A DNA stretch of 40,698 bases from IMG/VR virus record IMGVR_UViG_3300021139_000040, positions 1 to 40,698 of that record. One strand, given 5' to 3'. Shown piece after piece: positions 25,539-40,698 of the stretch. The DNA is from a virus. Position 1 is the stretch's first letter. The number at the start of each line of letters is the position of its first letter. A program made the translations under genes and the position numbers. The notes under the pieces are model-generated. The model was not told the origin of the DNA. It did no database searches and saw nothing but the letters and a program-made list of their open reading frames with translations.

Positions 25539-25541
25539 ACG

Positions 25542-25548: not shown

Positions 25549-25554
25549 TAGATT

Positions 25555-27570
25555 ATGGCACGATATAATACAGTCAGTACAACAAGCTCAGTATCAGGTG
25601 GTAATGTAATTACTACACCTAGTAGCGGCCTGTTGACTACACTTACTGGAACAGGTACTGTAACCGTACCTAACCCAGTTTATTATACCGGCCAAACTCA
25701 AACATTTTATAATAGCACTGGTAGTGCTATTACATTAGCTACACCAAGTGGTATATTTAACGGTCCAGGTTCAGGAGCTTCTTCTAATTTAAGTTTACCT
25801 GCTGGTTCTATTATTACAGTTGTTAGTGATGGTACAAATTATATTGTTGAATCTTGGTTAGGCGGAGCCATAGTTGTAAGCGGAACGTTAACAGCTTATG
25901 GAACAGTAGCTATGAATCCAAGCAATGCTAATGTAAGCATACAGCCTACTGGAACTGGCACGTTAAACATGAGCAGTGGTGCTACTGGCTCATTAGACAA
26001 TGTCAGCATTGGAACTACTACACAAGCTAGTGGTAAATTTACAACTCTTAGCTCAACTGGTGTTACTCAGGTAACAGCTGGTACATCAGTTACTTTAGGT
26101 ACTGCCGCAAGTGGAGCACTACAAGTTACAGGCGGCGTGGGTATTGGTGGTGGAATAACAGTAGGTAGCAGTGGTTATTTTGGTGGTAGTGTAGGAATAG
26201 GTATAACTAACCCATCATATCCTTTGGTTGTATCAAATTCTGGTGCCCAAGGTATTGAATTTAGTCCAACCGGCGGCATTAACAGTGGCGGATTCATTCA
26301 AGCATACAATAGATCTGGAGCGGCATATTTAGATTTAACATATTATGCTACTCAATATCACTTTTGGACGAACGGTAATGAGAAATTTACATTAGATTCT
26401 AGCGGTAACTTATCAATAAGCAATAAAGCTTCGAGTCCAACAAATAGTCAAAATCCCCCAGGTAGCTTATACTTTTACGGTCAGGGATGGAATACACTAA
26501 GTGGCTCAACACAATACCAAGGACAAATTAGCCTTGGCGGTGCTTACAGTGCTAGTACAGGTAGCGTAGAACCAGCAATTACGTTTAGCCTAGCTGGTAC
26601 AGGTAACAGTGGTTATAATGCTAGTGCCGGCCCGTCAACATTAACAGAGCGTGTGCGTATCAATAACTATGGTAACATTGGTGTTGGTACAACTACACCG
26701 CAAGTAACACTAGATATGGGTAGCAGAACTGATGCTATCTTATTACCAAGCGGAACATCAGCACAGCGACCTTCAGCAGTAGCAGGTATGATGCGTTATA
26801 ACTCAACCAGCGGTACAGCAGAAGTATATAGTCAAGGATCTTGGAACGCATTTGGTACGGTGGCTAACGGCTTAACAGCAACTACTCCTTTCACTAAATC
26901 ATCTGATATGGTTAACCAAAGTTCAAATGGTACATATTGGATTCAAACTAAAAATATGACTTCGGCACAACAGTATTATGTAGATTATACTAGTACTACA
27001 GGCGGGCCTTGGGTTAGAATTTTCTTAGCTAACACAGATAATTACAATCAAACTAGTTACTCATGGGACAATGCTCAAAGCAGTAACATGCTATTAGATA
27101 GCGCATATTTTATGTATGCGTTTGTTAATAGTTCAACGAATGCTTTAACATATCCTTGGGCATTTAGATTTAATGATAGTACTACACTAAATGGTAGTAG
27201 TGACGGTAATAAAAGTGCGTTCTTAAGTGGTCCTCCTATGGGCCACGGAGGATCTGGATCACCTTTAATTACTTACATGTATACTATTCGGTTAACAGAT
27301 AGCACAGTTTATTCAGGGTACTTACGAACAGGAGTAAGTAGTTTTGGATCGCTATGTGATGACGGTCGTAGTGGAATCTGGGGACAAATTTGTTTAAAAG
27401 CAGGCGGTAGTGGTGGCAGTGGTACCGGTAGTGGCGGTTATAGTGATTTCCCACATTTTAGTTCATTTGCTTATAGCGGAACAGACAATTGGGCGCAAAG
27501 TAACCAAAGTTATACAACAAACAGTTCAGATAGTAATCATAGATTTGGAGTATATTGTAAATTAGTATGA
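25555..27570 (+). CDS. Tail fibre 3 with fibrinogen-like tip
   Basis: A 671-residue fibre with the shared MARYN module at residues 1-105. Shaft repeats include NPSNANVSIQPTGTGTLNMS, VTLGTAASGALQVTGGVGIG and GIGITNPSYPLVVSN. Near residue 400 it has LPSGTSAQRPSAVAGMMRYN, the tip-joint motif also used by the two short fibres at 31673 and 31843. The C-terminus, about 455-671, has GTYWIQTKNMTSAQQYYVDY, WVRIFLANTDNYN and SFGSLCDDGRSGIWGQICLK. This resembles fibrinogen-C-terminal-like domains found on marine phage fibres, which are thought to bind surface glycans. No S74 domain is present. The last codons overlap the start of the thioredoxin-like gene. Confidence 0.8.
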   Translation: MARYNTVSTTSSVSGGNVITTPSSGLLTTLTGTGTVTVPNPVYYTGQTQTFYNSTGSAITLATPSGIFNGPGSGASSNLSLPAGSIITVVSDGTNYIVESWLGGAIVVSGTLTAYGTVAMNPSNANVSIQPTGTGTLNMSSGATGSLDNVSIGTTTQASGKFTTLSSTGVTQVTAGTSVTLGTAASGALQVTGGVGIGGGITVGSSGYFGGSVGIGITNPSYPLVVSNSGAQGIEFSPTGGINSGGFIQAYNRSGAAYLDLTYYATQYHFWTNGNEKFTLDSSGNLSISNKASSPTNSQNPPGSLYFYGQGWNTLSGSTQYQGQISLGGAYSASTGSVEPAITFSLAGTGNSGYNASAGPSTLTERVRINNYGNIGVGTTTPQVTLDMGSRTDAILLPSGTSAQRPSAVAGMMRYNSTSGTAEVYSQGSWNAFGTVANGLTATTPFTKSSDMVNQSSNGTYWIQTKNMTSAQQYYVDYTSTTGGPWVRIFLANTDNYNQTSYSWDNAQSSNMLLDSAYFMYAFVNSSTNALTYPWAFRFNDSTTLNGSSDGNKSAFLSGPPMGHGGSGSPLITYMYTIRLTDSTVYSGYLRTGVSSFGSLCDDGRSGIWGQICLKAGGSGGSGTGSGGYSDFPHFSSFAYSGTDNWAQSNQSYTTNSSDSNHRFGVYCKLV

Positions 27571-27881
27571 TAAACGATCTATTAAATCAACCAGGAATTA
27601 AATGCTTTGTACTAAGTAACAAAGAATGCCCCCATTGTGAGGAATGGATGCAAAATAATTTTGATACTTTTAAAAATCAATTTACTGATGTAACATGGCA
27701 TGTAATTGATTGCTATGAAGAACATCAAGCAGGCCGAATGCCATTTCCTCCGTTAGCAAGTCCGACATTTTATTTGTATAAAGATCCGCAAGATTTTCCT
27801 ATTATTAGTGCAGGTTTTTTACCAGAGCCAGAAATGACAATGAAGTTTAAAAGACTAGTAGAGGCCGTTAAGAATGACTGA
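27567..27881 (+). CDS. Thioredoxin-fold protein with CPHC motif
   Basis: A 104-residue single-domain protein. After a first beta strand (KCFVLSN) comes CPHC at residues 21-24 at the start of a helix. Near residues 65-67 is SPT followed by FYLYK, matching the cis-proline loop and strand of thioredoxin and glutaredoxin folds. CPHC is the active-site type of DsbA-like or glutaredoxin-like oxidoreductases. There is no signal peptide, so it would act in the cytoplasm. The start overlaps the fibre 3 stop (ATGATAA) and the end overlaps the next start, so the three genes are translationally coupled. A thiol oxidoreductase inside a fibre cassette may tune disulfides in cysteine-containing fibre tips; this is inference from position. 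Confidence 0.75.
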   Translation: MINDLLNQPGIKCFVLSNKECPHCEEWMQNNFDTFKNQFTDVTWHVIDCYEEHQAGRMPFPPLASPTFYLYKDPQDFPIISAGFLPEPEMTMKFKRLVEAVKND

Positions 27882-28152
27882 TATTACTAAAGATATTAAT
27901 TATCCTAAAGTAGTGTGGGAACAACTACGCAGATGGCGTGTTGCTCGTCAGCCTTTGCTTGAAAAATTAGATATCGAATCTCTAAGAGCTTTAGAAGTTA
28001 ATGATCAAACAACATTAGCTAGTGTAGTAGCACAAAAAACAGCCTTAAGAGAGATAACTAACTATGATTTTAGTCAAGTTGAGAAGTTAGAAGATATTTT
28101 AAGAATTTGGCCCGAATGTTTGGGTGAAATTCCAGATGAGTTTAAAGTTTAA
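27874..28152 (+). CDS. Putative tail-fibre assembly chaperone
   Basis: A 92-residue helical protein. The sequence WEQLRRWRVARQPLLEKLDI, later VVAQKTALREIT and finally a WPECL turn, resembles the short tail assembly chaperones of phages (R-x-x-LLxxxD...W..YRxxLRDIT...WP). Those proteins are encoded beside tail fibres and help fold or attach them. The start overlaps the end of the thioredoxin-like gene by 8 bases. The next fibre begins 8 bases after its stop. No enzymatic motif is seen. It is probably the companion of fibre 3 or fibre 4. The family match is by pattern only and could be wrong. Confidence 0.6.
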   Translation: MTDITKDINYPKVVWEQLRRWRVARQPLLEKLDIESLRALEVNDQTTLASVVAQKTALREITNYDFSQVEKLEDILRIWPECLGEIPDEFKV

Positions 28153-28155
28153 ATA
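28149..28155 (+). promoter_or_regulatory. TTAAATA box before fibre 4
   Basis: TTAAATA overlaps the stop of the assembly-chaperone-like gene and ends 5 bases before the fibre 4 ATG. No ribosome-binding site is visible. It has the same placement as the boxes before fibres 3 and 6. Confidence 0.3.
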
Positions 28156-28160
28156 CATAT

Positions 28161-30191
28161 ATGGCACGATATAATACAATAAGTTCAACAAATTCAGTAA
28201 CAGGCGGTAGTACAATCACCACTCCTGCTAGCGGTTTGTTGACTACACTAACTGGATCAGGCACGGTAACAATACCTAATCCAGTATATTATACTGGGCA
28301 AAATCAAAGTTTTTATAATAGTACTGCTAGTGCTATAACATTGTCAACTCCAAGCGGAATATTTAATGGCCCAGGTGCTGGAGCATCTAGTACACTGTCG
28401 TTAGCTGCCGGAGCAATTGTCACAATAGCCAGTGATGGTACTAATTATGTTACACAAGGTTGGTTAGGTGGTGTTGCTATTGCAACATCTATCACTGCTA
28501 GTTCTGGTACTCTTAATAGTGTTAGTATAGGATCTACAACTCCGGGAACTGGAGCATTTACTACTTTATCTGCAACAAGTACAACAACATTAGCTGGAGG
28601 AAGCGCTAGCGGTATATTTACATTTAGTAGTAGTCAAACCAGTAATGCATCCAACAACGGTGCAGTTGTAATTACCGGAGGACTTGGAGTTGGTGGTTCT
28701 CAATATACTGGCGGAACAATTAACGGCAGTAACGGTATATATGTTGGTAAAAATTATTCAGGGCTTGGAGCAGGTAATGCTCTAGCAACATTTTACGGAG
28801 TAGACAGCGGTGTAAGTAATACTGGTATTAGTATTACAACAAAAGGTCCTACAAGTCTATATGATACTTCGTCTTATCCGTTACAAGTTTGGGTTAATGG
28901 TACTGCAACGGCTAGTTTTGTGGGCAATGGTTATCTTGGTTTAGGTACAACAAATCCTAGTGATTTGTTTACTATAGATAACAGTAGCGCAAGTAACACA
29001 ACTGGCATTACACTAGCAAGTAGTGGAACAACCGATGCTAGAATTTATGCTAACGGTAGTAATTTAGTATTCAATAGTTTAAGAACTAACCCAATATATT
29101 GGCAAATTAATAGTAGCACTCAAATGGCGTTAAGCGGTAGCGGTTATCTAGGCATTGGAACTACTAATCCCCAAGTACCTTTACAAATTAATGCAACTAA
29201 TACATCTAACACAGCAACTGGCGGCAGTCATTTAAGATTAGAAAATCCATCAGGAAGTCAAACACTGATAGGATTTACATTTAATGGAACAGCAAAAGGT
29301 GCGTTACGTGTTGATAGTTCGGGTAATGTAATTTTTGATTCGTTAGGCGATTACTATTTTAACTATGAATTAGGCGGAACATCGTTTAATTTTAGAAATG
29401 GTGCTACCGGTGTATTCCAAAGCATTTCAGGAACAACTGTAAACTTTCCAGGTGCATTACAATATGGTGGAAATACTGTATTAAGCACAAGTAACTATAC
29501 CAGTTATGTAACACAAGTATCTCCAATTCAAGTTGGTGGCTACAGTTATGCAACTACATCTAACAGAAATTCAATTAACACTATTGGTTCTTATGCATCG
29601 TATCCAGGAGGCAGCGGCGCACCGTCTACTTATGATTATACACTAGAAGTTACTGGTTCCGGTAGAGGCTGGCGTTTAGAAATGGATTGGATTGGAGCTC
29701 CGTCGCCCTATGTAAGCGCACTACGTGATTGCTGTCAAAACTGGTCAAGCTGGTATACTATTTCTGTAGCGGCAGCGTCTGATCGCAGAAGAAAAACTAA
29801 TATAGAACCAGTAACTGATCATAGACAAATTATATTTGGTTTAAATGCTACTCGTTATGATGTTGTGAACGAAGACGGAACGTTAGGAGATGTATCAGAC
29901 CAAGATCCAGATTTACGTGTAGAACGTCCAAAAGAAATTGGTTATATTGCACAAGATGCAATTAAAGTTGTTCCAGAAGTAGTTAAATTTAATCCAAGAC
30001 AAGATACACCAAACGAAGTGGGTTGGGCAAATGCTTACACAGTTGACTATGAAAGATTAGTACCTGTATTAACTGAAGCAACTAAAGAAATTTACACAGA
30101 TATGGATGCAGTTAAGGACATGATGTTGGCAATGCAAGCACAAATTGCCGCATTACAAGCAGAAGTTGCCGCATTGAAAGGAAAACAATAA
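28161..30191 (+). CDS. Tail fibre 4 with S74 chaperone
   Basis: A 676-residue fibre. Residues 1-105 are the shared MARYN module. The shaft shows GAVVITGGLGVGGSQYTGG and two GLGTTNP / GIGTTNPQVPLQI repeats. Residues about 450-538 (SINTIGSYASYPGG, then WRLEMDWIGAP, ending NWSSWYTI) resemble a pyocin-knob-type tip. Residues 540-676 are a Peptidase_S74 domain with Ser540 and Lys545 in SDRRRK, followed by IGYIAQDAIKVVPEVV. A C-terminal coiled coil rich in Ala, Gln and Leu should hold the chaperone trimer. Autocleavage is predicted before Ser540, leaving the knob at the mature tip. The stop overlaps the next start as TAATG. Confidence 0.85.
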   Translation: MARYNTISSTNSVTGGSTITTPASGLLTTLTGSGTVTIPNPVYYTGQNQSFYNSTASAITLSTPSGIFNGPGAGASSTLSLAAGAIVTIASDGTNYVTQGWLGGVAIATSITASSGTLNSVSIGSTTPGTGAFTTLSATSTTTLAGGSASGIFTFSSSQTSNASNNGAVVITGGLGVGGSQYTGGTINGSNGIYVGKNYSGLGAGNALATFYGVDSGVSNTGISITTKGPTSLYDTSSYPLQVWVNGTATASFVGNGYLGLGTTNPSDLFTIDNSSASNTTGITLASSGTTDARIYANGSNLVFNSLRTNPIYWQINSSTQMALSGSGYLGIGTTNPQVPLQINATNTSNTATGGSHLRLENPSGSQTLIGFTFNGTAKGALRVDSSGNVIFDSLGDYYFNYELGGTSFNFRNGATGVFQSISGTTVNFPGALQYGGNTVLSTSNYTSYVTQVSPIQVGGYSYATTSNRNSINTIGSYASYPGGSGAPSTYDYTLEVTGSGRGWRLEMDWIGAPSPYVSALRDCCQNWSSWYTISVAAASDRRRKTNIEPVTDHRQIIFGLNATRYDVVNEDGTLGDVSDQDPDLRVERPKEIGYIAQDAIKVVPEVVKFNPRQDTPNEVGWANAYTVDYERLVPVLTEATKEIYTDMDAVKDMMLAMQAQIAALQAEVAALKGKQ

Positions 30192-30394
30192 TGGCACTTA
30201 ATTATTTTGTTGAAGACTCATTGTATGATGAGAGAATGAATACTTGCAGGCAATGTCCAAGTTATGGAGCATTAGGTGTGTGTAGTGAATGTAAATGCGT
30301 AATGCCTGTTAAGGCTAAATTTGCACATTTTTACTGTCCTATTAAAAAATGGGACAGAGACTATTCTAAACTCGTAATAATCAAATCGGAATAA
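30191..30394 (+). CDS. Small six-cysteine zinc-ribbon-like protein
   Basis: A 67-residue protein with cysteines at 19, 22, 31, 34, 36 and 49. The spacing is C-x2-C-x8-C-x2-C-x-C, then MP, then CP and KKW. This predicts a small zinc-binding domain. The same spacing, with ECKC and CPxxKW conserved, forms the C-terminus of the 2OG oxygenase at 32652-33362. The pattern resembles small cysteine-rich phage and bacterial families of unknown function (DUF6171-like, from memory). The start overlaps the fibre 4 stop by one base, and fibre 5 begins 1 base after its stop, so it is embedded in the fibre operon. It could be an adaptor or a folding partner; no function is established. Confidence 0.7.
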   Translation: MALNYFVEDSLYDERMNTCRQCPSYGALGVCSECKCVMPVKAKFAHFYCPIKKWDRDYSKLVIIKSE

Positions 30395-30395
30395 T

Positions 30396-31673
30396 ATGGC
30401 ACGTTATAATTCAGTAAACGCAACGGGTTCAGTAGCAGGAGGTAGTACAATTACTACACCTAGCAGTGGTTTGCTGACCACATTAACTGGTAGCGGAACT
30501 GTAACTGTGCCAAATCCAGTTTACTATACTGGTCAGACACAATCATACTACAATTCAACTGGTAGTGCTATTACACTTAGTACACCTAGCGGTGTTATAA
30601 ATGGCCCTGGATTAGGCGGCGGATCAAGCACGTTATCTTTACCTACTGGATCAATTATAACATTGATTAGTGATGGAACAAATTATTTGACACAAGATTG
30701 GTTAGGCGGAAATGTTAGTGCTTCAACATTAAGTGCAACATCTTCAGTTAACCTAAGCCCAGGTACAGGATCGGTGACAATAAGTCCTAGTAGTGCTGGT
30801 ACAATTAATAATATGAGTATAGGTGCTAGTACAGCAAGTACAGGTGCATTTAGTACATTAAGTGCTACTGGAACAACCACTGTTACTGGCGGAACTGCGG
30901 TAACATTAGGAACAGCCGCAAGTGGAGCACTACAAGTAACAGGTGGTGTTGGTATAGGCGGCGGAATATACGCAGCCGGTCAAAGTAGTTTTGGAAACAA
31001 ACTAGGTATTGGAACAAATAGTCCAGGTATCGATTTAGATGTACAAGGTTCTGGCAGATTTTTAAATACTGGCGCGGCTACTAATGCTAGTACAGGAAAA
31101 GGATTAGAAATTCAATATGCAACTTCTGGGCGTACACAAGGTGAGGGTGCTTATTTAATTCCGTATGACAGAACTGGTTCTGCTTATAAACAATTTGTTA
31201 TTGATGCTAGTACGACAATTTTATCTATAAGCGGAACATCTAAAGTTACTGTTGACACAAATGGATATTTACTAGTAGGCTATACTTCTAGTCAAGGAAC
31301 ATATAACTTGCAAGTTAATGGTAATTTCTACCTTAGCGGATTAATTACAGAAGCATCTAGTATTGCATTAAAAGAAAATGTACAACCGATTGAAAATGCG
31401 TTGGATTTAATATTAGATCTAGTAGGTGTAACTTACGATAGACGCGATGGTAGTAAGAAAAATGAACCAGGATTGATTGCAGAAGAAGTTTATAAACGAG
31501 CACCTGCATTAGTTAGCCTTGATAATGATGGAAATCCAGCAGGTGTATTGTATACTAAATTAGGTCCTTACTTAATTGAAGCAATTAAAATGCTTAAAGA
31601 CGAAGTTGATGAATTAAAAAACAAAAAATCATTCTTAAACAAATTGTTTGATATGTTGAGAGGTAAAAAATAA
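30396..31673 (+). CDS. Tail fibre 5, short, with S74 chaperone
   Basis: A 425-residue fibre, the shortest with the shared MARYN module (residues 1-105). The shaft has SVTISPSSAGTINNMSIGAS and VTLGTAASGALQVTGGVGIG repeats, then a short insert near residues 220-300. The S74 domain starts at Ser321 with Lys326 (SSIALK), five residues apart as required, and continues PGLIAEEVYKRAPALV. It ends in a strongly charged helix with a basic tail. There is little room for a separate receptor domain, so the mature tip after cleavage would be only the last shaft segment. It may be a shorter, alternative receptor fibre. The last base of its stop is the first base of the next start. Confidence 0.85.
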   Translation: MARYNSVNATGSVAGGSTITTPSSGLLTTLTGSGTVTVPNPVYYTGQTQSYYNSTGSAITLSTPSGVINGPGLGGGSSTLSLPTGSIITLISDGTNYLTQDWLGGNVSASTLSATSSVNLSPGTGSVTISPSSAGTINNMSIGASTASTGAFSTLSATGTTTVTGGTAVTLGTAASGALQVTGGVGIGGGIYAAGQSSFGNKLGIGTNSPGIDLDVQGSGRFLNTGAATNASTGKGLEIQYATSGRTQGEGAYLIPYDRTGSAYKQFVIDASTTILSISGTSKVTVDTNGYLLVGYTSSQGTYNLQVNGNFYLSGLITEASSIALKENVQPIENALDLILDLVGVTYDRRDGSKKNEPGLIAEEVYKRAPALVSLDNDGNPAGVLYTKLGPYLIEAIKMLKDEVDELKNKKSFLNKLFDMLRGKK

Positions 31674-31843
31674 TGGCAACATTAGCAAGTTTAGTATGTA
31701 CAAATACCGATGCGGCAATAATGCCTCGTGGAAATAATACAACTGATCGTCCCACTCCGGTTGCTGGTATGGTTAGATATAACAATACAGATGGTAGAAT
31801 GGAATTTTATAACGGCAGTGCCTGGGTAATATTGGTGATATAA
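31673..31843 (+). CDS. Mini-fibre protein (56 residues)
   Basis: A short gene beginning MATLASLVCTNTDAAIMPRG and ending in NGSAWVILVI. It shares RPTPVAGMVRYN and the YNGSxW ending with the tip-joint motif of fibre 3 and of the next gene. The start overlaps the fibre 5 stop by one base, and its stop overlaps the next start by one base (TAATG on both sides). This argues for real translation by reinitiation. The following gene also starts MATLA and continues through the same motif, so this looks like a truncated or minimal copy of that gene's N-terminus. It could be a tip cap, or a remnant of a duplicated fibre. Confidence 0.6.
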   Translation: MATLASLVCTNTDAAIMPRGNNTTDRPTPVAGMVRYNNTDGRMEFYNGSAWVILVI

Positions 31844-32652
31844 TGGCAACACTAGCAGGATTAACAGTCAACGGCACGGGAAGTATTCAATTACCGACCG
31901 GAACTACGGCTCAACGTCCTAGTAGTCCAGTTGCTGGCATGATTCGTTATAATACATCTTGGGGTGGAATTGAACACTACAACGGAACACAATGGGTACA
32001 AGGTATTGGATCTAGTGCTAGTACAGCGGCATCGTCTGGTAAAGCAATTTACAATGCGTTGCCTAGTGCCCCAAGCGGTATCTACTGGTTAAAAACGTCA
32101 GGTGGCACGGCTTTCCAAGCATACGTGGCAATGGATTACGGCGGTGGCTGGGTTAATTTGCATACAAATTACGGTAGCGGAGCATATACAAACCCTCTGA
32201 CAACAGCAGGCTGGGCCAATCAAACAAGTGGTGCAAGCGGTAACGGCTTCGGGCCATGGGCGCCATTGAGTGCAAGTTATCAAACAAACGCAGAAGCAAA
32301 CAGTTATGGTTGCCCAAGTAGTGGATATAGAAGTCAAGTGTTTGCCAACGCAAGTATATTAACAGATTTAGGAGCAACCCAAGTTAGATGGAGTTGTAGC
32401 GTACAAAATTTAAATAACGTTACTTGTGGATATTTGAATGCCAACCAATCTAATTTTACAATTATTAGCGGTACTACTAATATGATTACTGTTTGCAATA
32501 ACCCTCCAAACCAATACAGCCAGCTTAATCCAGGAAGTTTTACATTTATTGCATACGCTACTATCAGCGCAAGCGGTAATGCCTTATTCGAAACATGGAC
32601 CGCTTGTAGCGGTACTATGGATGTGGCCTTAAACTATTTGATGGTGAGATAA
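31843..32652 (+). CDS. Short fibre with fibrinogen-like tip
   Basis: A 269-residue protein lacking the MARYN module. It starts MATLAGLTVNGTGSIQLPTG and reaches AQRPSSPVAGMIRYN by about residue 35, the same tip-joint motif used by fibre 3. Residues about 70-269 begin SGIYWLKTSGGTAFQAYVAM and GGGWVNLHTNYGSG, which resembles the start of a fibrinogen-like domain. The later part has several cysteines (for example NVTCGYLNANQ and ACSGTMDVALNYL) that may pair. Without its own docking module it may attach to another fibre as a tip. Its stop overlaps the start of the oxygenase that follows. Confidence 0.7.
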   Translation: MATLAGLTVNGTGSIQLPTGTTAQRPSSPVAGMIRYNTSWGGIEHYNGTQWVQGIGSSASTAASSGKAIYNALPSAPSGIYWLKTSGGTAFQAYVAMDYGGGWVNLHTNYGSGAYTNPLTTAGWANQTSGASGNGFGPWAPLSASYQTNAEANSYGCPSSGYRSQVFANASILTDLGATQVRWSCSVQNLNNVTCGYLNANQSNFTIISGTTNMITVCNNPPNQYSQLNPGSFTFIAYATISASGNALFETWTACSGTMDVALNYLMVR

Positions 32653-33362
32653 TGATTAAAGATTTAAACTTAGCAGGCAACAGAGTACTAGTAATGACAA
32701 TCGATCAATCTCTAGTTGATAAAATTGCCGCTCATGCCGAACAAGAATATGAAAAAAATCTTGAAGTAAGTCAAGGTTATCCAGAAACTTCGGATGTATA
32801 TTTGTTTAAAAGTCCAACAAGTTTAACTAATCCTCCAACTGGTCCTGGTTATCAGTGGTTTCCAGTAGACTCTAGTGATGTTGAAGAATTTAAAAACACC
32901 ATGTTGTCTGCGATGCAAGCACAGTTTAATGCAGAATACAAAATTAGCGAATGCTGGTTTTTACTCCAAACCAATGAAGAGTGGATTGATAATCCAGTAC
33001 ATCAGCATCTTACAGCAGATTGGGTAGCAGTGGCATACATTAAAGTTGATGGCGATGGCATAGAATTTAGCGATGATGGCGGAAATACAGAAGTATATCA
33101 TCCAACAGCAGGAACAGTATTAGTATTTCCGGCAATGGCCAAACACAGACCAATGCCTAATACAAGCAATAGTCATAGGATCAGCCTTAATTTAGAATTA
33201 AATGCAGAAACAGAGCCAGAAACAGACTTGCAAAAGTCGCGCATGGACATTTGTAATAGTTGTGATAGATTAAGTAGTTTAAAATTTTGCGGAGAATGCA
33301 AGTGTTTTATGCCATTTAAAACTCGACTAATTTCTAGTGTATGTCCTTTGCAAAAATGGTAA
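32652..33362 (+). CDS. 2OG-Fe(II) oxygenase-like protein fused to zinc ribbon
   Basis: A 236-residue two-domain protein. Residues about 1-185 look like a double-stranded beta-helix 2-oxoglutarate/Fe(II) oxygenase of the putative 2OG-FeII_Oxy_5 type. Candidate metal ligands are His117 and/or His119 (NPVHQHLTADW) with distal His165 in FPAMAKHRPMP, and Arg176 is a candidate 2-oxoglutarate anchor (HRISLNLEL). Residues 199-236 form a zinc-ribbon-like tail with cysteines 201, 204, 213, 216, 218 and 231, the same spacing as the stand-alone 30191-30394 product. The fusion suggests the ribbon guides the enzyme to its substrate. The gene overlaps the upstream fibre stop by one base. The oxygenase call is by motif; the substrate is unknown, and a fibre protein is a reasonable guess. 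Confidence 0.65.
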   Translation: MIKDLNLAGNRVLVMTIDQSLVDKIAAHAEQEYEKNLEVSQGYPETSDVYLFKSPTSLTNPPTGPGYQWFPVDSSDVEEFKNTMLSAMQAQFNAEYKISECWFLLQTNEEWIDNPVHQHLTADWVAVAYIKVDGDGIEFSDDGGNTEVYHPTAGTVLVFPAMAKHRPMPNTSNSHRISLNLELNAETEPETDLQKSRMDICNSCDRLSSLKFCGECKCFMPFKTRLISSVCPLQKW

Positions 33363-33374
33363 AATTAAAATAAG

Positions 33375-33381
33375 TTAAATA
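33375..33381 (+). promoter_or_regulatory. TTAAATA box before fibre 6
   Basis: TTAAATA lies in the 23-base AT-only gap after the zinc-ribbon oxygenase and ends 4 bases before the fibre 6 ATG. With the flanking GTTAAATATA and the first ~30 coding bases it repeats the fibre 3 upstream region. Confidence 0.3.
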
Positions 33382-33385
33382 TAAG

Positions 33386-34963
33386 ATGGCACGATATAAT
33401 ACAGTCAGTACAACCGGATCAGTAGCAGGTGGCAATTCAATTGCTACACCTTATAGCGGATTACTGACTACATTAACCGGATCGGGTACTGTTACACTTC
33501 CTAATCCTACTTACTATGCTGGTCAAACACAAACTTATTACAATTCAACCGGAGCTAATATTGTATTAAACACACCTAGTGGTGTGTTTAATGGCCCGGG
33601 TGCAAGTAGTTCTAGCAACATTACTTTACCAGCAGGTTCAATAATCACAATAAGCAGTGATGCAACTAATTATCTTGTTGAAAGTTGGTTAGGTGGAAAT
33701 AGTGTTGCAGTAACGTTATCTGCATCTGGTTCTGTAACTTTTAATCCATCAAATAGTAGTATAAGTTTACAACCAACAGGAACTGGTACAGTTAATATAG
33801 CACCTGGAACTGCTGGTACTATAGATAACATGGCTATTGGCGCAACTACTAGATCAACTGGTGCATTTACTACATTAACAGCTAATGGTGCAACAACACT
33901 AACTAGTAATGGTGCCGCAAGTGCTTATAATACATCCGGTGCCGCATTGTTAGTCGGCGGCGGCGTTGGTATTGCAGGAGCGGTTTATACAAATAGCACA
34001 GCTACATTTGCCAATACACTTACTGTAAGTTCGGGCGGAGCAGTTGTAACTGGCAATTCTTCTGTTACTGGTACATTACAAACTACTGGATTGAATACTA
34101 TTACAGTTACATCTAGCACTGCTACACTAGCAGGAACACATATTCAATTGACCAATCCTAGCGGATCACAGATAGTAATTGGTGCTAATTTTAATAGTGT
34201 GAATAAAGGTAGTTTAAGATTTGACAATTCGGGTAATGTTGTCTTAAATGCCACTAGCGGTAATTTTTATTTTAATAACGATACTAGTCCAACCAGTATA
34301 AATTTAGTTAATGGTAATACTACATTCTTATCTACTAGTGGAAGTAATGGTATAAGTGTTCCAGGCACAGTTTCTGCTGGTACATTTAGTGGATCAGGTG
34401 CAAGTTTAACTGGAACTGGTAGTAGCTTTACTGCTGGAGCAGTAACTAACGGTGTTTATACTAACACTGGTAACACATTTACACAATTCGGCGGTGTTAA
34501 CAGTAATTATGCTAAGTCGGGATCAATTTTAATTCCAATGCAGTTGCACAACTCAGCAACAGGCCAAGGCTTAGGCGTTCCAACAACTATCAGTCCAGGT
34601 TCAGAACAATATTTTAATGCACTTGGAAATATGAGTTGGCCGCAAGGTAGTCGTGTTCGTCTGTGGTTAGTTGTTAACGTACAAGGTTCACCTGATATAA
34701 CTGAAAATACTACATTAAATATACACATTAATGCAATCGGATCTGCCACACCATACGATAGCGGATTTAAACTAAGTAATTGGACAGTATATGGTAGAGA
34801 TTGGGGCGATAATTATCAAGATCATAATATTAGTCCAATGTTTTATATGGGAAATAATAACTACGGTTTATATATTAAAAATACCGGAAGTACTAATTAT
34901 GTTCAAATATTTGGATACGGCTTTATAGCCGAACCTCCAGATGGTTATGTATCTTCAGGCTAA
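33386..34963 (+). CDS. Tail fibre 6 with unassigned beta tip
   Basis: A 525-residue fibre, last of the six with the shared MARYN module (residues 1-105). The shaft carries NPSNSSISLQPTGTGTVNIA and GAALLVGGGVGIAGAVY repeats. There is no S74 domain. Residues about 375-525 form a distinct beta-rich tip containing SRVRLWLVVNVQGSPD, WTVYGRDWGDNYQDHNISP and a final YVQIFGYGFIAEP strand. I do not recognise a ligand. The upstream gap contains a TTAAATA box, and the first ~30 coding bases closely match the start of fibre 3, as if the two shared a recent recombination. A strong ribosome-binding site follows for the next gene. Confidence 0.8.
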   Translation: MARYNTVSTTGSVAGGNSIATPYSGLLTTLTGSGTVTLPNPTYYAGQTQTYYNSTGANIVLNTPSGVFNGPGASSSSNITLPAGSIITISSDATNYLVESWLGGNSVAVTLSASGSVTFNPSNSSISLQPTGTGTVNIAPGTAGTIDNMAIGATTRSTGAFTTLTANGATTLTSNGAASAYNTSGAALLVGGGVGIAGAVYTNSTATFANTLTVSSGGAVVTGNSSVTGTLQTTGLNTITVTSSTATLAGTHIQLTNPSGSQIVIGANFNSVNKGSLRFDNSGNVVLNATSGNFYFNNDTSPTSINLVNGNTTFLSTSGSNGISVPGTVSAGTFSGSGASLTGTGSSFTAGAVTNGVYTNTGNTFTQFGGVNSNYAKSGSILIPMQLHNSATGQGLGVPTTISPGSEQYFNALGNMSWPQGSRVRLWLVVNVQGSPDITENTTLNIHINAIGSATPYDSGFKLSNWTVYGRDWGDNYQDHNISPMFYMGNNNYGLYIKNTGSTNYVQIFGYGFIAEPPDGYVSSG

Positions 34964-34970
34964 GTAGTAT

Positions 34971-34977
34971 AGGAGGA
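34971..34977 (+). promoter_or_regulatory. Strong ribosome-binding site (AGGAGGA)
   Basis: AGGAGGA lies 5 bases before the ATG of the P4H-like oxygenase. It is the clearest Shine-Dalgarno sequence in the fibre/enzyme region and fixes the start at 34983. Most neighbouring genes instead rely on overlaps or weak sites. Confidence 0.75.
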
Positions 34978-34982
34978 TTCCT

Positions 34983-35522
34983 ATGCTATTAAACCAACTA
35001 ATACTACAGATACCAAATGCTGTAGATTCTACTTTTTGTAAAAAACATATTGATTTTGTAGAACAACAAAATTATCCTATAACAACTAATACAAAAAATT
35101 TTGTCCAACGCCCTTTAGAAGGTGTTGATCTTTCAGAAGTTGCCATTTCTTTACAAAATATGCTGGGATATTATCAACAGACTGTGCCTGTTTTTAATTT
35201 CTATGCGACGCCAGTCAAATTAGAAACACCCGTAGTTAAAAAATATCAGGCAGGAGGTAAAGATTATTTTGGAGAACACATGGATAACTGTGATCACATT
35301 ACCTCTACAAGATTTATGGCATTTCTTATCTATTTGAATGATGTAGAAGAGGGCGGAGAAACAGTATTTCCACAGTTAGGTATAAGTATTAAACCAAAAG
35401 CGGGAACATCAGTGATATTCCCTCCGTATTGGATGTTCAAACATAGGGCAGAAGCCCCTGTAAGTAACAATAAATATATCATGACAACATATTTTAGATA
35501 TGCTTCTACAGAAGGAGAATAA
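34983..35522 (+). CDS. Prolyl-4-hydroxylase-like 2OG-Fe(II) oxygenase
   Basis: A 179-residue cytoplasmic protein covering one double-stranded beta-helix domain. The catalytic set is clear: His99-x-Asp101 (FGEHMDNC), distal His154 (MFKHRAEAP) and Lys164 for 2-oxoglutarate binding, ten residues after the histidine as in prolyl-4-hydroxylases. The motifs YLNDVEEGGETVFP and IKPKAGTSVIFPP are typical of the P4H family. The family hydroxylates a substrate carbon, often a prolyl residue, using O2 and 2-oxoglutarate. AGGAGGA lies 5 bases before the ATG and is the strongest ribosome-binding site in this part of the window. The position right after the fibre array suggests fibre or host-protein hydroxylation; the substrate is not proven. 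Confidence 0.85.
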   Translation: MLLNQLILQIPNAVDSTFCKKHIDFVEQQNYPITTNTKNFVQRPLEGVDLSEVAISLQNMLGYYQQTVPVFNFYATPVKLETPVVKKYQAGGKDYFGEHMDNCDHITSTRFMAFLIYLNDVEEGGETVFPQLGISIKPKAGTSVIFPPYWMFKHRAEAPVSNNKYIMTTYFRYASTEGE

Positions 35523-35525
35523 ACA

Positions 35526-35858
35526 ATGGCACTGACACAGAACTTTGAAAGCGATTTTGGTACAACACATCCAAACGCATACTACAGAATTATAGCAATA
35601 AGAATGGATCACAATACAGATATTCGAGCAGTAGATCTCGAAGGAAACCCCTTACCTGCTCCAATTAAACGCTATAGTGATATACATGCAGATGTAGCAA
35701 TTTGGAATGATCAAACATCTTATAATAATGGTGCTAAACCTATTGGAGGATTTACTCATAGAATGACATATCAACCAACACAAGGTAATGTGCTTGCAGA
35801 ATTGTACACTGATATGAAAGTTAAGCTCGAATTTATGGCAACTGCCAAAGATGCATAA
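35526..35858 (+). CDS. Small phage protein of unknown function
   Basis: A 110-residue protein between two oxygenase genes, starting 3 bases after the first. The N-terminus (FESDFGTTHPNAYYRIIAIR) and the later beta strands (THRMTYQPTQG) resemble small proteins found beside tail genes in many phages. Those are usually labelled hypothetical or structural. There are no cysteines and no clear catalytic motif; the three scattered histidines are not arranged as a metal site I can identify. An AAGGAGAA sequence at the end of the previous gene serves as ribosome-binding site. It may be a minor fibre component or a substrate or partner of the adjacent oxygenases. Confidence 0.5.
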   Translation: MALTQNFESDFGTTHPNAYYRIIAIRMDHNTDIRAVDLEGNPLPAPIKRYSDIHADVAIWNDQTSYNNGAKPIGGFTHRMTYQPTQGNVLAELYTDMKVKLEFMATAKDA

Positions 35859-35867
35859 TTATTAACA

Positions 35868-36443
35868 GTGAATTCCACTATAGTATCCCAAGTATCGTTA
35901 ACTACTTCCGAAATAGATTTTATAAAAACTAAAATCTTAGGATATGCACTGCCTTGGCATAGAAATCCTGCACAAACTTATACAGAACCCGACGAAAAAT
36001 TTAAAGGGCGAGCCGGAAATACATTTTGGTTTAGTCATCCATTAATGGATCGAGCAGAAAAGCCATACTGGGATCCTGATCAGTCAGGTAAAATAGTAGA
36101 TCCATCTTTATATTCGTTTTTCCATGTTATTTTTTCCAGGCATTTAAGAGAACAGAACATAGAATATAAAACAATCCTACGATCTAGTCTTAACCTAGTA
36201 GTACATAGCAACTATGAATTTACAGTTCCTCATGTAGATCATTTTTTCCCTCACTGGAATTGGGTCATGTATCTTAATACTGTAGAAAATGCTCCTACAG
36301 TTTTGTTTGACGAAAATATGGAAATTATAGAATCTGTTCAAGCAGAAGAATTTAAAAGTGTTATATTTCCAGGAGTAACACACGCCCACAAATTCCCTCC
36401 AATTAATCAAGATCGATGTGTTTGTGTCTTTACGTTTGCGTAA
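35868..36443 (+). CDS. 2OG-Fe(II) oxygenase-like protein
   Basis: A 191-residue protein starting at GTG; the next in-frame ATG is too far inside (near residue 60) to keep the fold. His122-x-Asp124 sits in TVPHVDHFFPHW, the distal His172 or His174 in GVTHAHKFPP, and Arg183 in DRCVCVFTF is the candidate 2-oxoglutarate anchor. This order and spacing fit the 2OG-Fe(II) oxygenase superfamily, with LYLN-type (VMYLNTVENAP) and FPGV core strands. It is only distantly similar to the P4H-like enzyme at 34983. The 3' end runs 14 bases into the end of the convergent halogenase gene, leaving no room for a normal terminator between them. Confidence 0.75.
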   Translation: MNSTIVSQVSLTTSEIDFIKTKILGYALPWHRNPAQTYTEPDEKFKGRAGNTFWFSHPLMDRAEKPYWDPDQSGKIVDPSLYSFFHVIFSRHLREQNIEYKTILRSSLNLVVHSNYEFTVPHVDHFFPHWNWVMYLNTVENAPTVLFDENMEIIESVQAEEFKSVIFPGVTHAHKFPPINQDRCVCVFTFA

Positions 36444-37908
36444 TTAAATTAATATAATTTCTATGATCATCAAACATAGGAATTATTTTACTCCACGATT
36501 CTTTTATCAAATCCAAAGTATTATTAGATTGTTGTGTTGCTTGATAAAATTCTAATTCATTTTTAGCAATATTTTTATCAAGCAATTCTAAACCGTCTAA
36601 GACATTTAGATATAGAACACTATTAACAGTTCTACTTAGTGTCATAAAATCTAAATCTCTAGGAATTTTATACTTAACAGCATCTAATAAATTAGCAGTA
36701 TTAGAAGATATTTTATCATTCCATCGATCTATCCAAAACTGTTCTTTGCGTTTAGTTCTATAATGTATTACAATGAAATCTCTAAAAGAATCATACATAT
36801 CTCCTATGTATTGATTATATTTTTCATAATTATAATCCGTTAAGGTATATTCTTCAAAAAATACTTTAAGTTGCTCTAATGTAGAATGTATGCTAGTTGC
36901 TTCTAAAGGTTCTAAAAATGCTGCCGATAATCCAACTGATAGATAATTTTTAAATAGAAACTTATCAGAACGTCCACTATTAAATTTAATTTGTTTAATA
37001 GGAGAAATTTTACGACCTAATTTTTCTTCTAATTCTTGCTGTGCTTGATCAAAGTCTATATATTTGTCACAAAAAACATAACCGCACCCTAGTTTATCTT
37101 GTTTAGGAATTTGCCACATCCATCCAGCTGATAGTGCCTGAGCAAGTGTATAATTAGGCATACTATTATTTTCATAATCTAATAAAAATGGCAAAGCAGA
37201 ATTTACTGGCAAATATTCCTGGTAACTAATCCAATTTATTCCTAATTTGTTAGCAATAACTTTTGCAAATCCGCTAGCATCTATTACAAAATCTACAAAA
37301 AATTTTTCATTATTTTTTAATACTAATGCTGAAATATTTCCATTATTATCTTGCTCTATATCAACTATTTGATCATCAATAGAACTAACATTATTTTGCA
37401 AGCAACATTTTTTAAAATATTTTCCAACTTTGTGTCCGTCAAAATGATAGCTATAAGTTAAAAATTTTGTTAATTGTTCAGGTTTACTGAATTTATGCAA
37501 CGGCATTAGTTGTCCGTTAAGTGTATTATTACCTATTTTTTCTCCACGAGATAATACCTCATTAACAAAATAATTAAAACTTTTATTTTTTGGCAACGGA
37601 CTTACTACACTACGAACGTCATCTAATGGACCAAAATAACTATGATCTTGTTCAAACCAGTCTTGATGCTTAATTCCTAATTTAAAAGTAGCACTGGTTT
37701 CTTTGATAAAATCTTTTTCGTTAATACCCAACATACCTGTTTCTAAAAAATTTTTAAATAAACCTGTACTTCCTTCTCCAGCACCTATTATTCCAATTTG
37801 ACTAGGTTCGAAAACAGTTATATTATAATCTTTTCCAAGATAATGTCGAGCAAAAATAGCTGATATCCAGCCAGCAGTACCGCCACCAATGATTGCAATC
37901 TCTTTCAT
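36430..37908 (-). CDS. Flavin-dependent (tryptophan-type) halogenase
   Basis: A 492-residue protein near the usual 500-540 of the family. Residues 8-13 (GGGTAG) open the FAD-binding fold. Lys76 in ATFKLGIKH corresponds to the catalytic lysine (Lys79 in PrnA/RebH) that relays hypochlorous acid. Residues 263-268 read WMWQIP, the WxWxIP signature of flavin halogenases. EPLEATSIH near 333-341 carries the glutamate (Glu336) equivalent to the second active-site acid. Such enzymes halogenate indoles, phenols or pyrroles and need FADH2 from a separate reductase; no reductase is in the window. The gene starts 1 base after the carbamoyltransferase, so it is last in the minus-strand operon. Related genes are known in some marine T4-like phages; the substrate is unknown. 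Confidence 0.9.
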   Translation of the reverse strand: MKEIAIIGGGTAGWISAIFARHYLGKDYNITVFEPSQIGIIGAGEGSTGLFKNFLETGMLGINEKDFIKETSATFKLGIKHQDWFEQDHSYFGPLDDVRSVVSPLPKNKSFNYFVNEVLSRGEKIGNNTLNGQLMPLHKFSKPEQLTKFLTYSYHFDGHKVGKYFKKCCLQNNVSSIDDQIVDIEQDNNGNISALVLKNNEKFFVDFVIDASGFAKVIANKLGINWISYQEYLPVNSALPFLLDYENNSMPNYTLAQALSAGWMWQIPKQDKLGCGYVFCDKYIDFDQAQQELEEKLGRKISPIKQIKFNSGRSDKFLFKNYLSVGLSAAFLEPLEATSIHSTLEQLKVFFEEYTLTDYNYEKYNQYIGDMYDSFRDFIVIHYRTKRKEQFWIDRWNDKISSNTANLLDAVKYKIPRDLDFMTLSRTVNSVLYLNVLDGLELLDKNIAKNELEFYQATQQSNNTLDLIKESWSKIIPMFDDHRNYINLITQT

Positions 37909-37909
37909 A

Positions 37910-39439
37910 TTAATATTTTAAAAAATATTCATTGCCAATAAACACAGAATCTAGTGCAGTAGTGGCCAATAAATCTTTGGCAACTTCTGGATAACCAGCT
38001 AATGGTTTTCCTGCTAGATTTAAACTAGTGTTAAGTAATATAGGACAGCCTGTTAAATTATAAAATTCTGTTAATAACATTTTAAATACAGGATTTTTAT
38101 CGTCTACTGTTTGCACTCTGCAAGTACCATCTACGTGTGTTATAGCAGGATAGTTATTTGATTTAACTGATGCAGTATATAACATAAAATCATCATCCCA
38201 AGCTAGATCAAAATATTCAGATGCATATTCTTTTAATACGCTTGCTCCGAAAGGTCTGTAATATTCTCGATTTTTAATTCCATTTATTATATCTTTACCA
38301 TTTGCAAGTCTAGGATCCATTAGAATACTTCGATTGCCTAATGCTCTGGGCCCGGCTTCTCCCTTATCTTGATACCATCCAACTGTTTTTCCTTGTGCTA
38401 AAAATTCTGCGGCCTTTTTAATTGCTTGCATAGATGGCATTGCATTAGGTGGAGTATCGGATTGTATATAGGGAAAATTTGATAACTTAAACGGAGGCAA
38501 ATTATTTTTAATTCTTAACCATTCTAAGGCACCTAAACTTAATCCTTCATCGCCAGCATGTGGAGGAATAATTAAATTTTTAAAATGCTTTTTAAGTTCA
38601 GTATTCCAAATAACATTTTGTGCAACTCCGCCTGAATAGCTAATAACATCCGTTTTACTAGCATACTTTTTAAAAAGATCAATTAACACATTTTCCATGT
38701 GTTTATGTACAGTTTTAATCCAGTCTTGATGTGAACTAGTATCTTGACTACGTTTATAGTTATACCATCTTGCAATAGAAAAGATATCGTTTATGCAAGA
38801 GTAATCAAATTGTTGTAGATATCTTAGATATGCTTCATCTATAGTACCATAACTTTGCAACCCCATAAGTTTTCCAGGTAGATCATTGGAAATTTTAGCT
38901 TTGATTCCTAATATTGATGCGGAAGACATCATAGATCCGCCAATGGATCCGTTAGTTGCAAGACCTCTGTCTATAAGTTTATCGTTTTTAAATATACTCC
39001 ACGATCTGTGATCCCCGACTCCATCTATTACTACGCATAAGTCAGGTTTAGAATCAGTTAACATCCATGTACTAAGTGAATGGGCATAATGATGCCCTAT
39101 ATAATATATATTTTTATTTGGAATATAGCTATTAAAAACATTGATATTGGGTTCTAATTTAACTACATTAGTTTCTCCCAATAATACTTTTGTTATTTCG
39201 GGAGGTAAATTGTTTAAATCATAAAATGTTTCTGCATGGAAATCAAAAATAATTTCGTCTATGTCTTTTAAATCGATATTCCATAACTGTTTAATTTCAT
39301 ATATCCATGACCATTTATTATCTATTGCAAATCTTTTATCTTGTTTAATGCGTTCTAATTTTACATAATGAACTTGCTCACCGTCAAAATAAGCAATACT
39401 TCCATCGTGTCTGGGTAAAGATACTGATAATAATTTCAT
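37910..39439 (-). CDS. O-carbamoyltransferase (NodU/TobZ-type)
   Basis: A 509-residue protein with both domains of the family. The N-terminal Kae1-like part has HHYAH at 116-120 (metal ligands), VVIDGVGD at 136-143, PGKLMGLQSYG at 188-198, SGGVAQN at 269-275 and HAGDEGLSLGA at 294-304. The C-terminal part has GPRALGNRSI at 363-372, REYYRPFGASV at 391-401 and LLNTSLN near 477. The enzyme uses carbamoyl phosphate and ATP to place a carbamoyl group on a hydroxyl, classically on sugars or antibiotics. It is slightly shorter than many bacterial members (about 550-600). It begins 1 base after the upstream oxygenase, which could make the hydroxyl it modifies; that pairing is inference. Confidence 0.9.
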   Translation of the reverse strand: MKLLSVSLPRHDGSIAYFDGEQVHYVKLERIKQDKRFAIDNKWSWIYEIKQLWNIDLKDIDEIIFDFHAETFYDLNNLPPEITKVLLGETNVVKLEPNINVFNSYIPNKNIYYIGHHYAHSLSTWMLTDSKPDLCVVIDGVGDHRSWSIFKNDKLIDRGLATNGSIGGSMMSSASILGIKAKISNDLPGKLMGLQSYGTIDEAYLRYLQQFDYSCINDIFSIARWYNYKRSQDTSSHQDWIKTVHKHMENVLIDLFKKYASKTDVISYSGGVAQNVIWNTELKKHFKNLIIPPHAGDEGLSLGALEWLRIKNNLPPFKLSNFPYIQSDTPPNAMPSMQAIKKAAEFLAQGKTVGWYQDKGEAGPRALGNRSILMDPRLANGKDIINGIKNREYYRPFGASVLKEYASEYFDLAWDDDFMLYTASVKSNNYPAITHVDGTCRVQTVDDKNPVFKMLLTEFYNLTGCPILLNTSLNLAGKPLAGYPEVAKDLLATTALDSVFIGNEYFLKY

Positions 39440-39440
39440 G

Positions 39441-40013
39441 TTACCATGTCCAAACGACAGCAGAGTATCGTGTGCCTTTAGTTATTTCATTTATTGTGTG
39501 AGGATATAAAAATGCGCTAGGCCATATAATAATATCACCTTTATCTAATTTAAATGTAGATTCGAATGGTGTGCCTTTCCAAAAAACTAATTCTCCTCCG
39601 GAATAGTTTTCGTTAAAATTAGTAATAATAGACAATACTGGTATTCCGCGTTTTTCTCCCTCGAACAAGGAATATATATGGTCGTAATGATTTCTGCAAT
39701 ATTGCCCTACTTCGTATTTGTTAAGTCTGGGCAAACTTATACCATTTGCTAATGCTTTGTTTTTCAATCCTACTTTTTGATGATATACTGTAAGTGCTTT
39801 AAATAAGCACCCTGCAAATTCTTCAGACAACTCGTCTTCAGCCCAATCTAAAACACTAAATTCTTTTTGATCATTGCTATAAGGTTGACTAGTGTATTCG
39901 GCCCAACCGTGAGGTTTCCAATTAGGCGAATTTTTAAACTTGCTGATAATATTATCGCACAATGTATTGGGCAGACCGTTGCCGAAGTGTAGTATGAAAT
40001 TACTTAGATTCAT
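39441..40013 (-). CDS. 2OG-Fe(II) oxygenase (prolyl-hydroxylase-like)
   Basis: A 190-residue single-domain enzyme. The iron ligands are His109-x-Asp111 (CRNHYDHI) and His172 (LYPHTINE). Arg182 is ten residues later and should bind the 2-oxoglutarate carboxylate. NFNENYSGGELVFW and KLDKGDIIIWP are typical core strands, and SGGEL is shared with P4H and PiuC-type proteins. It is the first of three tightly packed genes (1-base gaps) with the carbamoyltransferase and halogenase, so the three products probably act on the same target. It differs clearly from the three plus-strand oxygenases of the window. Substrate unknown. Confidence 0.85.
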   Translation of the reverse strand: MNLSNFILHFGNGLPNTLCDNIISKFKNSPNWKPHGWAEYTSQPYSNDQKEFSVLDWAEDELSEEFAGCLFKALTVYHQKVGLKNKALANGISLPRLNKYEVGQYCRNHYDHIYSLFEGEKRGIPVLSIITNFNENYSGGELVFWKGTPFESTFKLDKGDIIIWPSAFLYPHTINEITKGTRYSAVVWTW

Positions 40014-40024
40014 ACTAGATTATA

Positions 40025-40474
40025 CTAGATTAAATCTACTAAGTCAAATACAGTTTGAAGTTTTGTGCGAATTGTTTTGCTCGAAAAACTATTACGCAAT
40101 CCTTGATGTAATGGTTTTGGGGCACGGTCTATTGTAGCCCAGCACCACCCATTATGCTCATTGCTTAGATATGGAATGAATTCTTCTTCTATCACACACA
40201 AATAAGTGTGAAAATTAAACACCTTGTCATTGCTGACAAAAGTTTCAAGAGGAATTGTTTTGATTATTTCAGGACAAGGACCAATTTCTTCGTTGATTTC
40301 TCTCACTAGACCTTGCCAAGGAGTTTCGCCTTGTATGTTAGTGCCGCCAACTAAGCCCCAAGTACCTTCATGTTTACCATGAGCTTTTTGTAACAGTAAG
40401 AATCGTCGTGTAGATTTAGCGTAGAACAATGCTCCGCTACACACTATCTGTTCTGTTACAATTCTATTCTCCAT
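40025..40474 (-). CDS. Nudix hydrolase
   Basis: A 149-residue Nudix-fold protein. The Nudix box at residues 44-66 is complete: G-x5-E50-x7-R58-E59-x-x-E62-E63-x-G65, with GGTNIQGE at its start and REINEEIGP at its end. These acidic residues bind the divalent metal that drives hydrolysis of nucleoside diphosphates linked to another group. LLLQKAHGKHEGTWGLVGG before the box is typical of NDP-sugar or NTP-acting members, but the substrate cannot be fixed from this. Its first 19 bases overlap the end of the upstream structural gene, and 11 bases separate it from the oxygenase. It could recycle nucleotide intermediates or serve as a general phage nucleotide-pool enzyme. Confidence 0.9.
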   Translation of the reverse strand: MENRIVTEQIVCSGALFYAKSTRRFLLLQKAHGKHEGTWGLVGGTNIQGETPWQGLVREINEEIGPCPEIIKTIPLETFVSNDKVFNFHTYLCVIEEEFIPYLSNEHNGWCWATIDRAPKPLHQGLRNSFSSKTIRTKLQTVFDLVDLI

Positions 40475-40698
40475 GATCCTTGGTCGTACTCACCTTCAAA
40501 GCTCTTAGTCCATGTGACACCGTTCCACATGTACTGAACACTAGTGTATGTATTCGTTTGCCATACCATAGTGTCAGGAAACTGGCTTGAATTAAAAACT
40601 ACATGCCATGCAGTACCAGTCCACTCTACAATGTCATTAGCATAAGCCACTAAACTACCCCAAGCATGTGCAGGTGTAACATTGTTTGCATTGCCTAT
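40456..40698 (-). CDS. C-terminus of a phage structural protein, 5' end beyond window
   Basis: The reading frame is open to the right edge of the window; the GTG at 40650 is likely internal. About 80 residues are visible: a Pro/Trp-containing stretch (TPAHAWGSLVAYANDIVEW), then WHVVFNSSQFPDT, VQYMWNGVTWTKSFEGEYD and a final GSWRIEL. This VxWxGxxWxVxFDS...YxWxGxxWxKSxEGxY...WRxxL pattern resembles the end of T4-like neck or tail-completion proteins, possibly gp14, but I am not sure of the number. It is beta-rich and has no cysteine. It shows that the minus strand carries virion genes as well as the enzyme operon, and that the operon's promoter lies outside the window. Confidence 0.6.
   Translation of the reverse strand: MGNANNVTPAHAWGSLVAYANDIVEWTGTAWHVVFNSSQFPDTMVWQTNTYTSVQYMWNGVTWTKSFEGEYDQGSWRIEL

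Follow-up and report, generated by a model that had tools for sequence, protein, structure and literature searches.

Results

An enzyme operon between the tail-sheath-stabiliser gene and the tail fibres

The window, meaning the whole stretch of 40,698 nucleotides that was analysed (positions 1 to 40,698 of IMG/VR record IMGVR_UViG_3300021139_000040), is a 40.7-kb virus fragment, taken in the explanation favoured below to come from a T4-like aquatic phage. It carries a minus-strand operon in the order NUDIX hydrolase, 2OG-Fe(II) oxygenase (2OG), O-carbamoyltransferase (CT) and halogenase. On one side this operon borders a T4 gp15 tail-sheath-stabiliser gene; on the other it converges on six paralogous tail-fibre genes with three further 2OG genes interleaved (Table 1). 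The oxygenase and CT open reading frames, singled out as a pair by a sequence-only reading of this DNA, lie on the minus strand exactly where that reading placed them.

Table 1. Genes of the operon and its surroundings in the window
Feature	Coordinates	Strand	Evidence
Six paralogous tail-fibre genes, small genes between	20999-34963	+	Repeat families D1-D3; tail-fibre PHROGs
OXY_A, phrog_81-like 2OG oxygenase after fibre gene	32652-33362	+	PF13759, E 1.7e-8
OXY_B, second phrog_61-like 2OG oxygenase after fibre gene	34983-35522	+	PF13640, E 8e-13
OXY_C, phrog_274-like 2OG oxygenase	35868-36443	+	phrog_274, E 3.6e-20
Flavin-dependent tryptophan-halogenase-family enzyme, 492 aa, 1-base gap after CT	36430-37908	-	PF04820, E 6e-94; phrog_2928
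CT, NodU/TobZ-type O-carbamoyltransferase, 509 aa	37910-39439	-	PF16861, E 2.7e-51; PF02543, E 2e-20; phrog_1601 'Nol-like carbamoyltransferase', E 4e-144
OXY_D, 2OG-Fe(II) oxygenase, P4H fold, phrog_61-like, 190 aa	39441-40013	-	PF13640 2OG-FeII_Oxy_3, E 1.8e-12; phrog_61, E 7e-28
NUDIX hydrolase, first enzyme gene of operon	40025-40474	-	PF00293, E 3e-15
T4 gp15-like tail sheath stabiliser, C-terminal end, runs off window	40456-40698	-	98.8% identity to L005:1186-2556

The NUDIX gene lies 11 bases upstream of the oxygenase-CT-halogenase trio, whose GC content (36430-40013) is 0.31 versus 0.38 in the rest of the window, consistent with separate acquisition of the trio. The close counterpart of the truncated gp15-like gene, L005:1186-2556, is 49% identical to L227:8962-10602 (PF16724 T4-gp15_tss, E 5e-25). 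NUDIX genes are retained near CT or gp15 in L011, L045 and L227. Since in L011 and L227, too, the NUDIX gene is next to the gp15 gene and is followed by 2OG, CT or halogenase genes, the locus is a repeated insertion point, and in the explanation favoured below the gp15-to-tail-fibre interval would be a hot spot holding a modular tailoring cassette.

The oxygenase-CT junction reads TAA-C-ATG, confirming the 1-base gap from which the sequence-only reading had suggested translational coupling. Gaps this short are nothing unusual in the window phage, however: of 24 junctions between same-strand genes, 4 have a 1-base gap and 10 fall between -8 and +3. The gap was accordingly rejected as evidence of coupling and is weak evidence on its own. 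The CT gene is in fact flanked by them on both sides, the CT-halogenase junction being TAA-T-ATG, so that the unit is at least a trio and the earlier two-gene framing is too narrow for this larger cassette.

OXY_C is convergent with the halogenase gene, their ends overlapping by 14 nt. Its AlphaFold2 model (pLDDT 88.8) has a 2OG fold (Z 16.2 to 6n1f), and its family is that of the convergent partner of the bacterial CTs described below. Proteins grouping with 2OGs (window 35868-36443 and L014:8064-8708) carry the PHROG labels 'DNA endonuclease V' (phrog_274) and 'ferrochelatase' (phrog_2954/3531), which are probably propagated annotation errors.

Carbamoyltransferase and halogenase

By its domains and motifs, the CT is a NodU/TobZ-family O-carbamoyltransferase, with carbamoyl transfer as the predicted reaction. 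The Kae1-like N-terminal and YrdC-like C-terminal domains (PF02543 and PF16861) both score above cut-off, and its PDB relatives are the novobiocin CT, GdmN and TobZ (E 1e-39 to 1e-34). The HHxxH/D metal site and the GPRALGNRS carbamoyl-phosphate/ATP motif appear intact, and residues H116, H120, D139, D297, R365, G368 and R370 are conserved in CTs of phages and bacteria alike. A comparison of CT in the window with that in L006/L007 gives 24 synonymous versus 2 nonsynonymous differences, indicating that the gene is under selection. At some other loci, CT is split into separate C- and N-terminal genes beside a ThyX-like thymidylate synthase (L033:3379-5631; also L126 and L263).

The halogenase has its motifs intact as well, namely the FAD site GGGTAG (GxGxxG), WMWQIP (WxWxIP) and the catalytic K76 and E333; the catalytic Lys and Glu are invariant in A6 (halogenase). 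Its PDB relatives include cyanophage VirX1, PrnA and RebH.

Predicted fold and possible substrates of the oxygenase

The iron triad and the 2OG-binding arginine of the oxygenase (H109-x-D111...H172...R182) are intact on a double-stranded beta-helix. The AlphaFold2 model (pLDDT 86.6) matches the PBCV-1 viral prolyl 4-hydroxylase (P4H) 5c5t with Z 18.5 and an rmsd of 3.1 over 163 residues, and also matches P. putida P4H, algal P4H, PHD2 and PiuC. Peptide or protein hydroxylases make up many of the top structural matches; among solved structures, the closest by sequence is the PKHD-type PiuC (E 2.6e-6). The Foldseek/VIA match lists do not separate P4H, PHD2 and PiuC as the nearest function. As judged from the model, 'P4H-like' is thus correct as a fold but not as a proven prolyl substrate, and it is in the former sense that the earlier label of prolyl-hydroxylase-like enzyme stands. 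A collagen-type fibre as the P4H substrate was rejected: the window fibres have no collagen-like Gly-X-Y runs longer than 3, so that prolyl hydroxylation of such a fibre is not indicated, and proline makes up only 2-4% of the large ones. When the oxygenase alone was used to look for close relatives, only the same virus species came up.

2OG genes adjoin CT genes more often than expected

Besides the window, the exact oxygenase-CT pair was found only in L005-L007, three near-identical contigs that come from other samples. The sister CT in L009, which is 58% identical to the window CT and groups with it in the tree, lies in an overlapping halogenase-CT-2OG(phrog_274) arrangement, with the halogenase gene preceding CT and a 2OG of another family following it; the window oxygenase is therefore not the conserved partner of CT that a pairwise reading would make it. 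Other orders are NUDIX-2OG(phrog_81)-CT-2OG(phrog_61) in L011 and overlapping CT-2OG-2OG genes in the isolated pelagiphage HTVC008M, where curli-type genes (CsgF, CsgG and CsgB) lie a few kb from CT (L002:7562-9557). In P-RSM4 and S-SSM5, the CT and 2OG genes are divergent.

Given that the exact pair is limited to near-identical contigs, we tested the association at class level. The sample comprised 80 viral-contig CT loci plus phage records, which were then dereplicated; the 2OG families, detected by means of HMMs constructed for this analysis, include remote members such as L219:8532-9176, which has no Pfam hit. Expected adjacency was taken from each locus's own 2OG density, and P was simulated. 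At 90% dereplication, a same-strand 2OG is directly beside CT in 30 of 75 loci and occupies 35 of 148 neighbour slots versus 22.1 expected (P 7.5e-4, approximate, as are the P values that follow, because slots were treated as independent). The excess persists at 70% dereplication (25/121 slots versus 13.4 expected, P 4.5e-4), and at 55% the P value is weaker (11/59 versus 6.3 expected, P 0.029). Gaps of 10 nt or less separate CT from 29 of the 35 adjacent 2OGs, and adjacency is highest at the immediate neighbours. A Pfam check of these 35 returned 20 PF13759 hits and 15 PF13640 hits, while among 44 other CT neighbours Trp_halogenase is the sole Pfam family appearing twice. On the CT tree, which comes from a quick search and has approximate support, a minimum of 17 changes in the '2OG adjacent' state is needed, and the adjacent genes belong to three 2OG families.

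Part of this adjacency is background, given how common 2OG genes are in these phages. No same-strand 2OG adjoins CT in 45 of the 75 loci, and several CTs stand alone beside gp23 or within replication genes.

Scanning bacterial genomes turned up 11 betaproteobacterial CT loci (L114-L121 and L123-L125; 41-50% identity), some of them near relatives, so that they represent roughly seven lineages. In all 11, a phrog_274-type 2OG gene is convergent to CT and lies just behind it (those of L118 and L125 were found by tblastn), and the flanks examined showed few further 2OG genes. The convergent pair occurs in Massilia, for example. That the same two genes stand together in bacteria, yet in convergent orientation, is the best sign of a functional pair. 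The bacterial CTs are nested among phage CTs in the tree. A broad presence of CT in Burkholderiales was rejected, with only 1 of 399 genomes carrying it. In L114 and L115, the gene just before CT encodes an Lcl_C-domain protein (Lcl_C, Legionella collagen-like C-terminal); L114 also has an APS kinase and a JmjC protein.

As a class, then, the 2OG-CT association recurs beyond chance, with unrelated 2OG subfamilies and on bacterial chromosomes too, even though the exact gene pair is confined to near-identical viruses.

Halogenase loci and dense islands

Among 69 dereplicated halogenase loci, 42 have a 2OG within five genes and 35 a second halogenase; CT is directly adjacent to the halogenase in 4, the window included. 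L216 has overlapping 2OG-HAL-CT-2OG genes, L227 the order 2OG-HAL-CT and L272 HAL-HAL-CT, and halogenase accompanies CT in several additional lineages besides that of the window. In some phages, stretches of about 15 kb contain 5-12 2OG genes together with as many as 4 halogenases, a density also cited as up to 12 2OGs plus 3 halogenases in 15 kb. Dense islands, with 10-12 2OG genes and up to 4 halogenases in ~15 kb, are those of L219, L217, L208, L257, L261 and L271. The large genes flanking islands encode tail sheath, sheath stabiliser, tail fibre and baseplate proteins, and also helicases and groEL.

A proposed tailoring cassette and its possible target

We tentatively prefer, as possible though short of likely, a modular tailoring cassette in which an oxygenase supplies a hydroxyl, CT caps it and a halogenase may act as well, with a virion protein, and most probably a tail fibre, as the preferred target. 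The P4H-fold 2OG oxygenase would insert a hydroxyl group on the target. CT would activate carbamoyl phosphate with ATP to a carbamoyl-adenylate and pass the carbamoyl onto that hydroxyl, for a net +59.00 Da, and at loci that have one, the halogenase would add a halogen to an aromatic ring on that target as well. The 2OG partner of CT need not be the oxygenase separated from it by 1 base. The enzymes with their motifs and folds, the operon, and the recurrent association of CT with 2OG and with halogenase genes are shown directly; we infer both that one enzyme's product is the next enzyme's substrate and what that substrate is. The P4H fold and the recurrent 2OG-CT association make the two-step hydroxylation-carbamoylation chemistry of the sequence-only reading plausible, but they do not establish the specific pair, the substrate or the order of reactions.

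A fibre protein is favoured as the target by the location, the P4H fold and one exchange: between window 30861-33362 and L006:7237-9700, the fibre tip and the 2OG that follows it (OXY_A) have been replaced together (L006/L007), in viruses that are 98.4% identical from 33369 to 40618, across the operon. This co-replacement is one event and could be passive linkage. Counting against fibre targeting, some islands adjoin groEL, helicase or sheath genes. We consider it rather improbable that swappable 'decoration islands' in aquatic T4-like phages hydroxylate, O-carbamoylate and halogenate their own tail-fibre proteins. If they do, O-carbamoylated hydroxy-residues would be a new protein modification, one that could serve to tune receptor binding or evade host defences.

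Alternative explanations

The same islands could arise if genes for single-step modifying enzymes simply gather near tail genes, with CT and the oxygenases modifying unrelated substrates. The very dense 2OG genes (up to 12 in 15 kb), the gaps of a few bases that are normal in the window phage, the differing gene order and 2OG subfamily between CT loci and the many CTs that have no 2OG neighbour would all follow from such accretion. It accounts less well for an adjacency that exceeds the level given by local 2OG density and is highest right beside CT, or for a 2OG beside CT at 11 of 11 bacterial loci whose examined flanks contain few others, and we regard it as somewhat unlikely.

Alternatively, like NodU, TobZ and the novobiocin enzyme, CT could carbamoylate a nucleotide sugar, a fibre or host-surface glycan or a secondary metabolite, with the oxygenase and halogenase tailoring the same molecule. 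The characterised PDB relatives of CT act on small molecules, and some phage CTs lie inside sugar operons (S-CAM3 and S-SCSM2R). Bacterial pathways are also known in which O-carbamoylation comes after hydroxylation: the 2OG hydroxylase CefF and the O-carbamoyltransferase CmcH act in cephamycin biosynthesis, a small-molecule beta-lactam pathway of actinomycetes. Yet the sugar-operon CTs form a separate clade, fully supported in the approximate CT tree, and the window oxygenase has protein hydroxylases and PiuC as its nearest matches. The scanned window genes include no glycosyltransferase, sugar-nucleotide or NRPS/PKS gene, nor any for sugar or Nod-factor synthesis near CT. On balance, a sugar or other small molecule is an unlikely substrate.

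Least probable by far is DNA base modification, in which the oxygenase or another enzyme would make 5-hydroxymethylcytosine (5hmC) for CT to carbamoylate: a described phage CT performs exactly that second step, converting 5hmC to 5cmC (MetaGPA study, eLife 70021, PMC8670742), but the window CT fails the residue test for it and its neighbouring oxygenase is P4H-like. TobZ R423 is one of three positions that set 5hmC-type CTs apart (PMC8670742). Phages BF503P1 and MD-2021a (L194 and L196) have CTs that adjoin dCMP hydroxymethylase or ThyA/deaminase/ligase genes and carry T there, whereas the window CT (R370) and all clade members tested keep R, making DNA an unlikely substrate. The partner of the eLife CT is a thymidylate-synthase homologue; none was seen in the window, nor a dCMP hydroxymethylase among the genes scanned in this 40.7-kb fragment. 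W408 was rejected as a diagnostic residue, as the halogenase-linked CTs of L216, L227 and L272 have Y or I at that position. A 2OG gene, a DNA methyltransferase and CT do share one block in S-SZBM1, P-RSM6 and S-WAM1. The conserved order in these phages (L028, L030 and L031) is 2OG, DNA methyltransferase, gp62, regA and CT, among replication genes, and the block might be a DNA-modification set, although its CT keeps R at TobZ 423.

Comparison with known systems

The proposed tailoring cassette shares its parts with several described systems. The window oxygenase has the same fold and HxD...H...R site as the viral and bacterial prolyl-4-hydroxylases PBCV-1 vCPH and P. putida P4H, but is only 14-16% identical to them, and a collagen-like or EF-Tu substrate is not indicated. 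The window CT has the two-domain architecture and motifs in common with TobZ, NodU, the novobiocin-type CT and GdmN; these modify antibiotics or Nod factors in bacterial pathways, whereas the window shows no such pathway. In CefF/CmcH, a 2OG oxygenase makes the hydroxyl that a CT carbamoylates, as is proposed for the cassette, CefF belonging to another 2OG family than the window oxygenase.

The closest phage precedent qualifies the earlier view that no described phage system works this way. In 5hmC carbamoylation (PMC8670742), a phage PF02543/PF16861 enzyme likewise caps a hydroxyl made by another phage enzyme, but that hydroxyl comes from a dCMP hydroxymethylase rather than a 2OG enzyme, and the target is DNA. 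A 2OG-CT-halogenase cassette was not found in the literature searched, of which coverage was incomplete. T4-like cyanophages carry the same three gene families as the window, noted one by one as scattered host-like genes (PMC3037559), and a shared cassette or two-step function was not found in that literature. PrnA/VirX1-type halogenases and 2OG-FeII genes were described there as auxiliary metabolic genes, with proposed roles in 2OG/nitrogen signalling and DNA repair (PMC3037559). In T4-like aquatic phages, 2OG oxygenases and halogenases are widespread as auxiliary metabolic genes of unexplained role; their clustering with CT beside tail genes, together with the bacterial 2OG-CT loci, suggests tailoring chemistry instead. 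Such chemistry would have a defined mass signature (+15.99, +43.01 and +59.00 Da, and halogen isotope patterns) by which phages in culture, HTVC008M among them, could put the question directly to the test.
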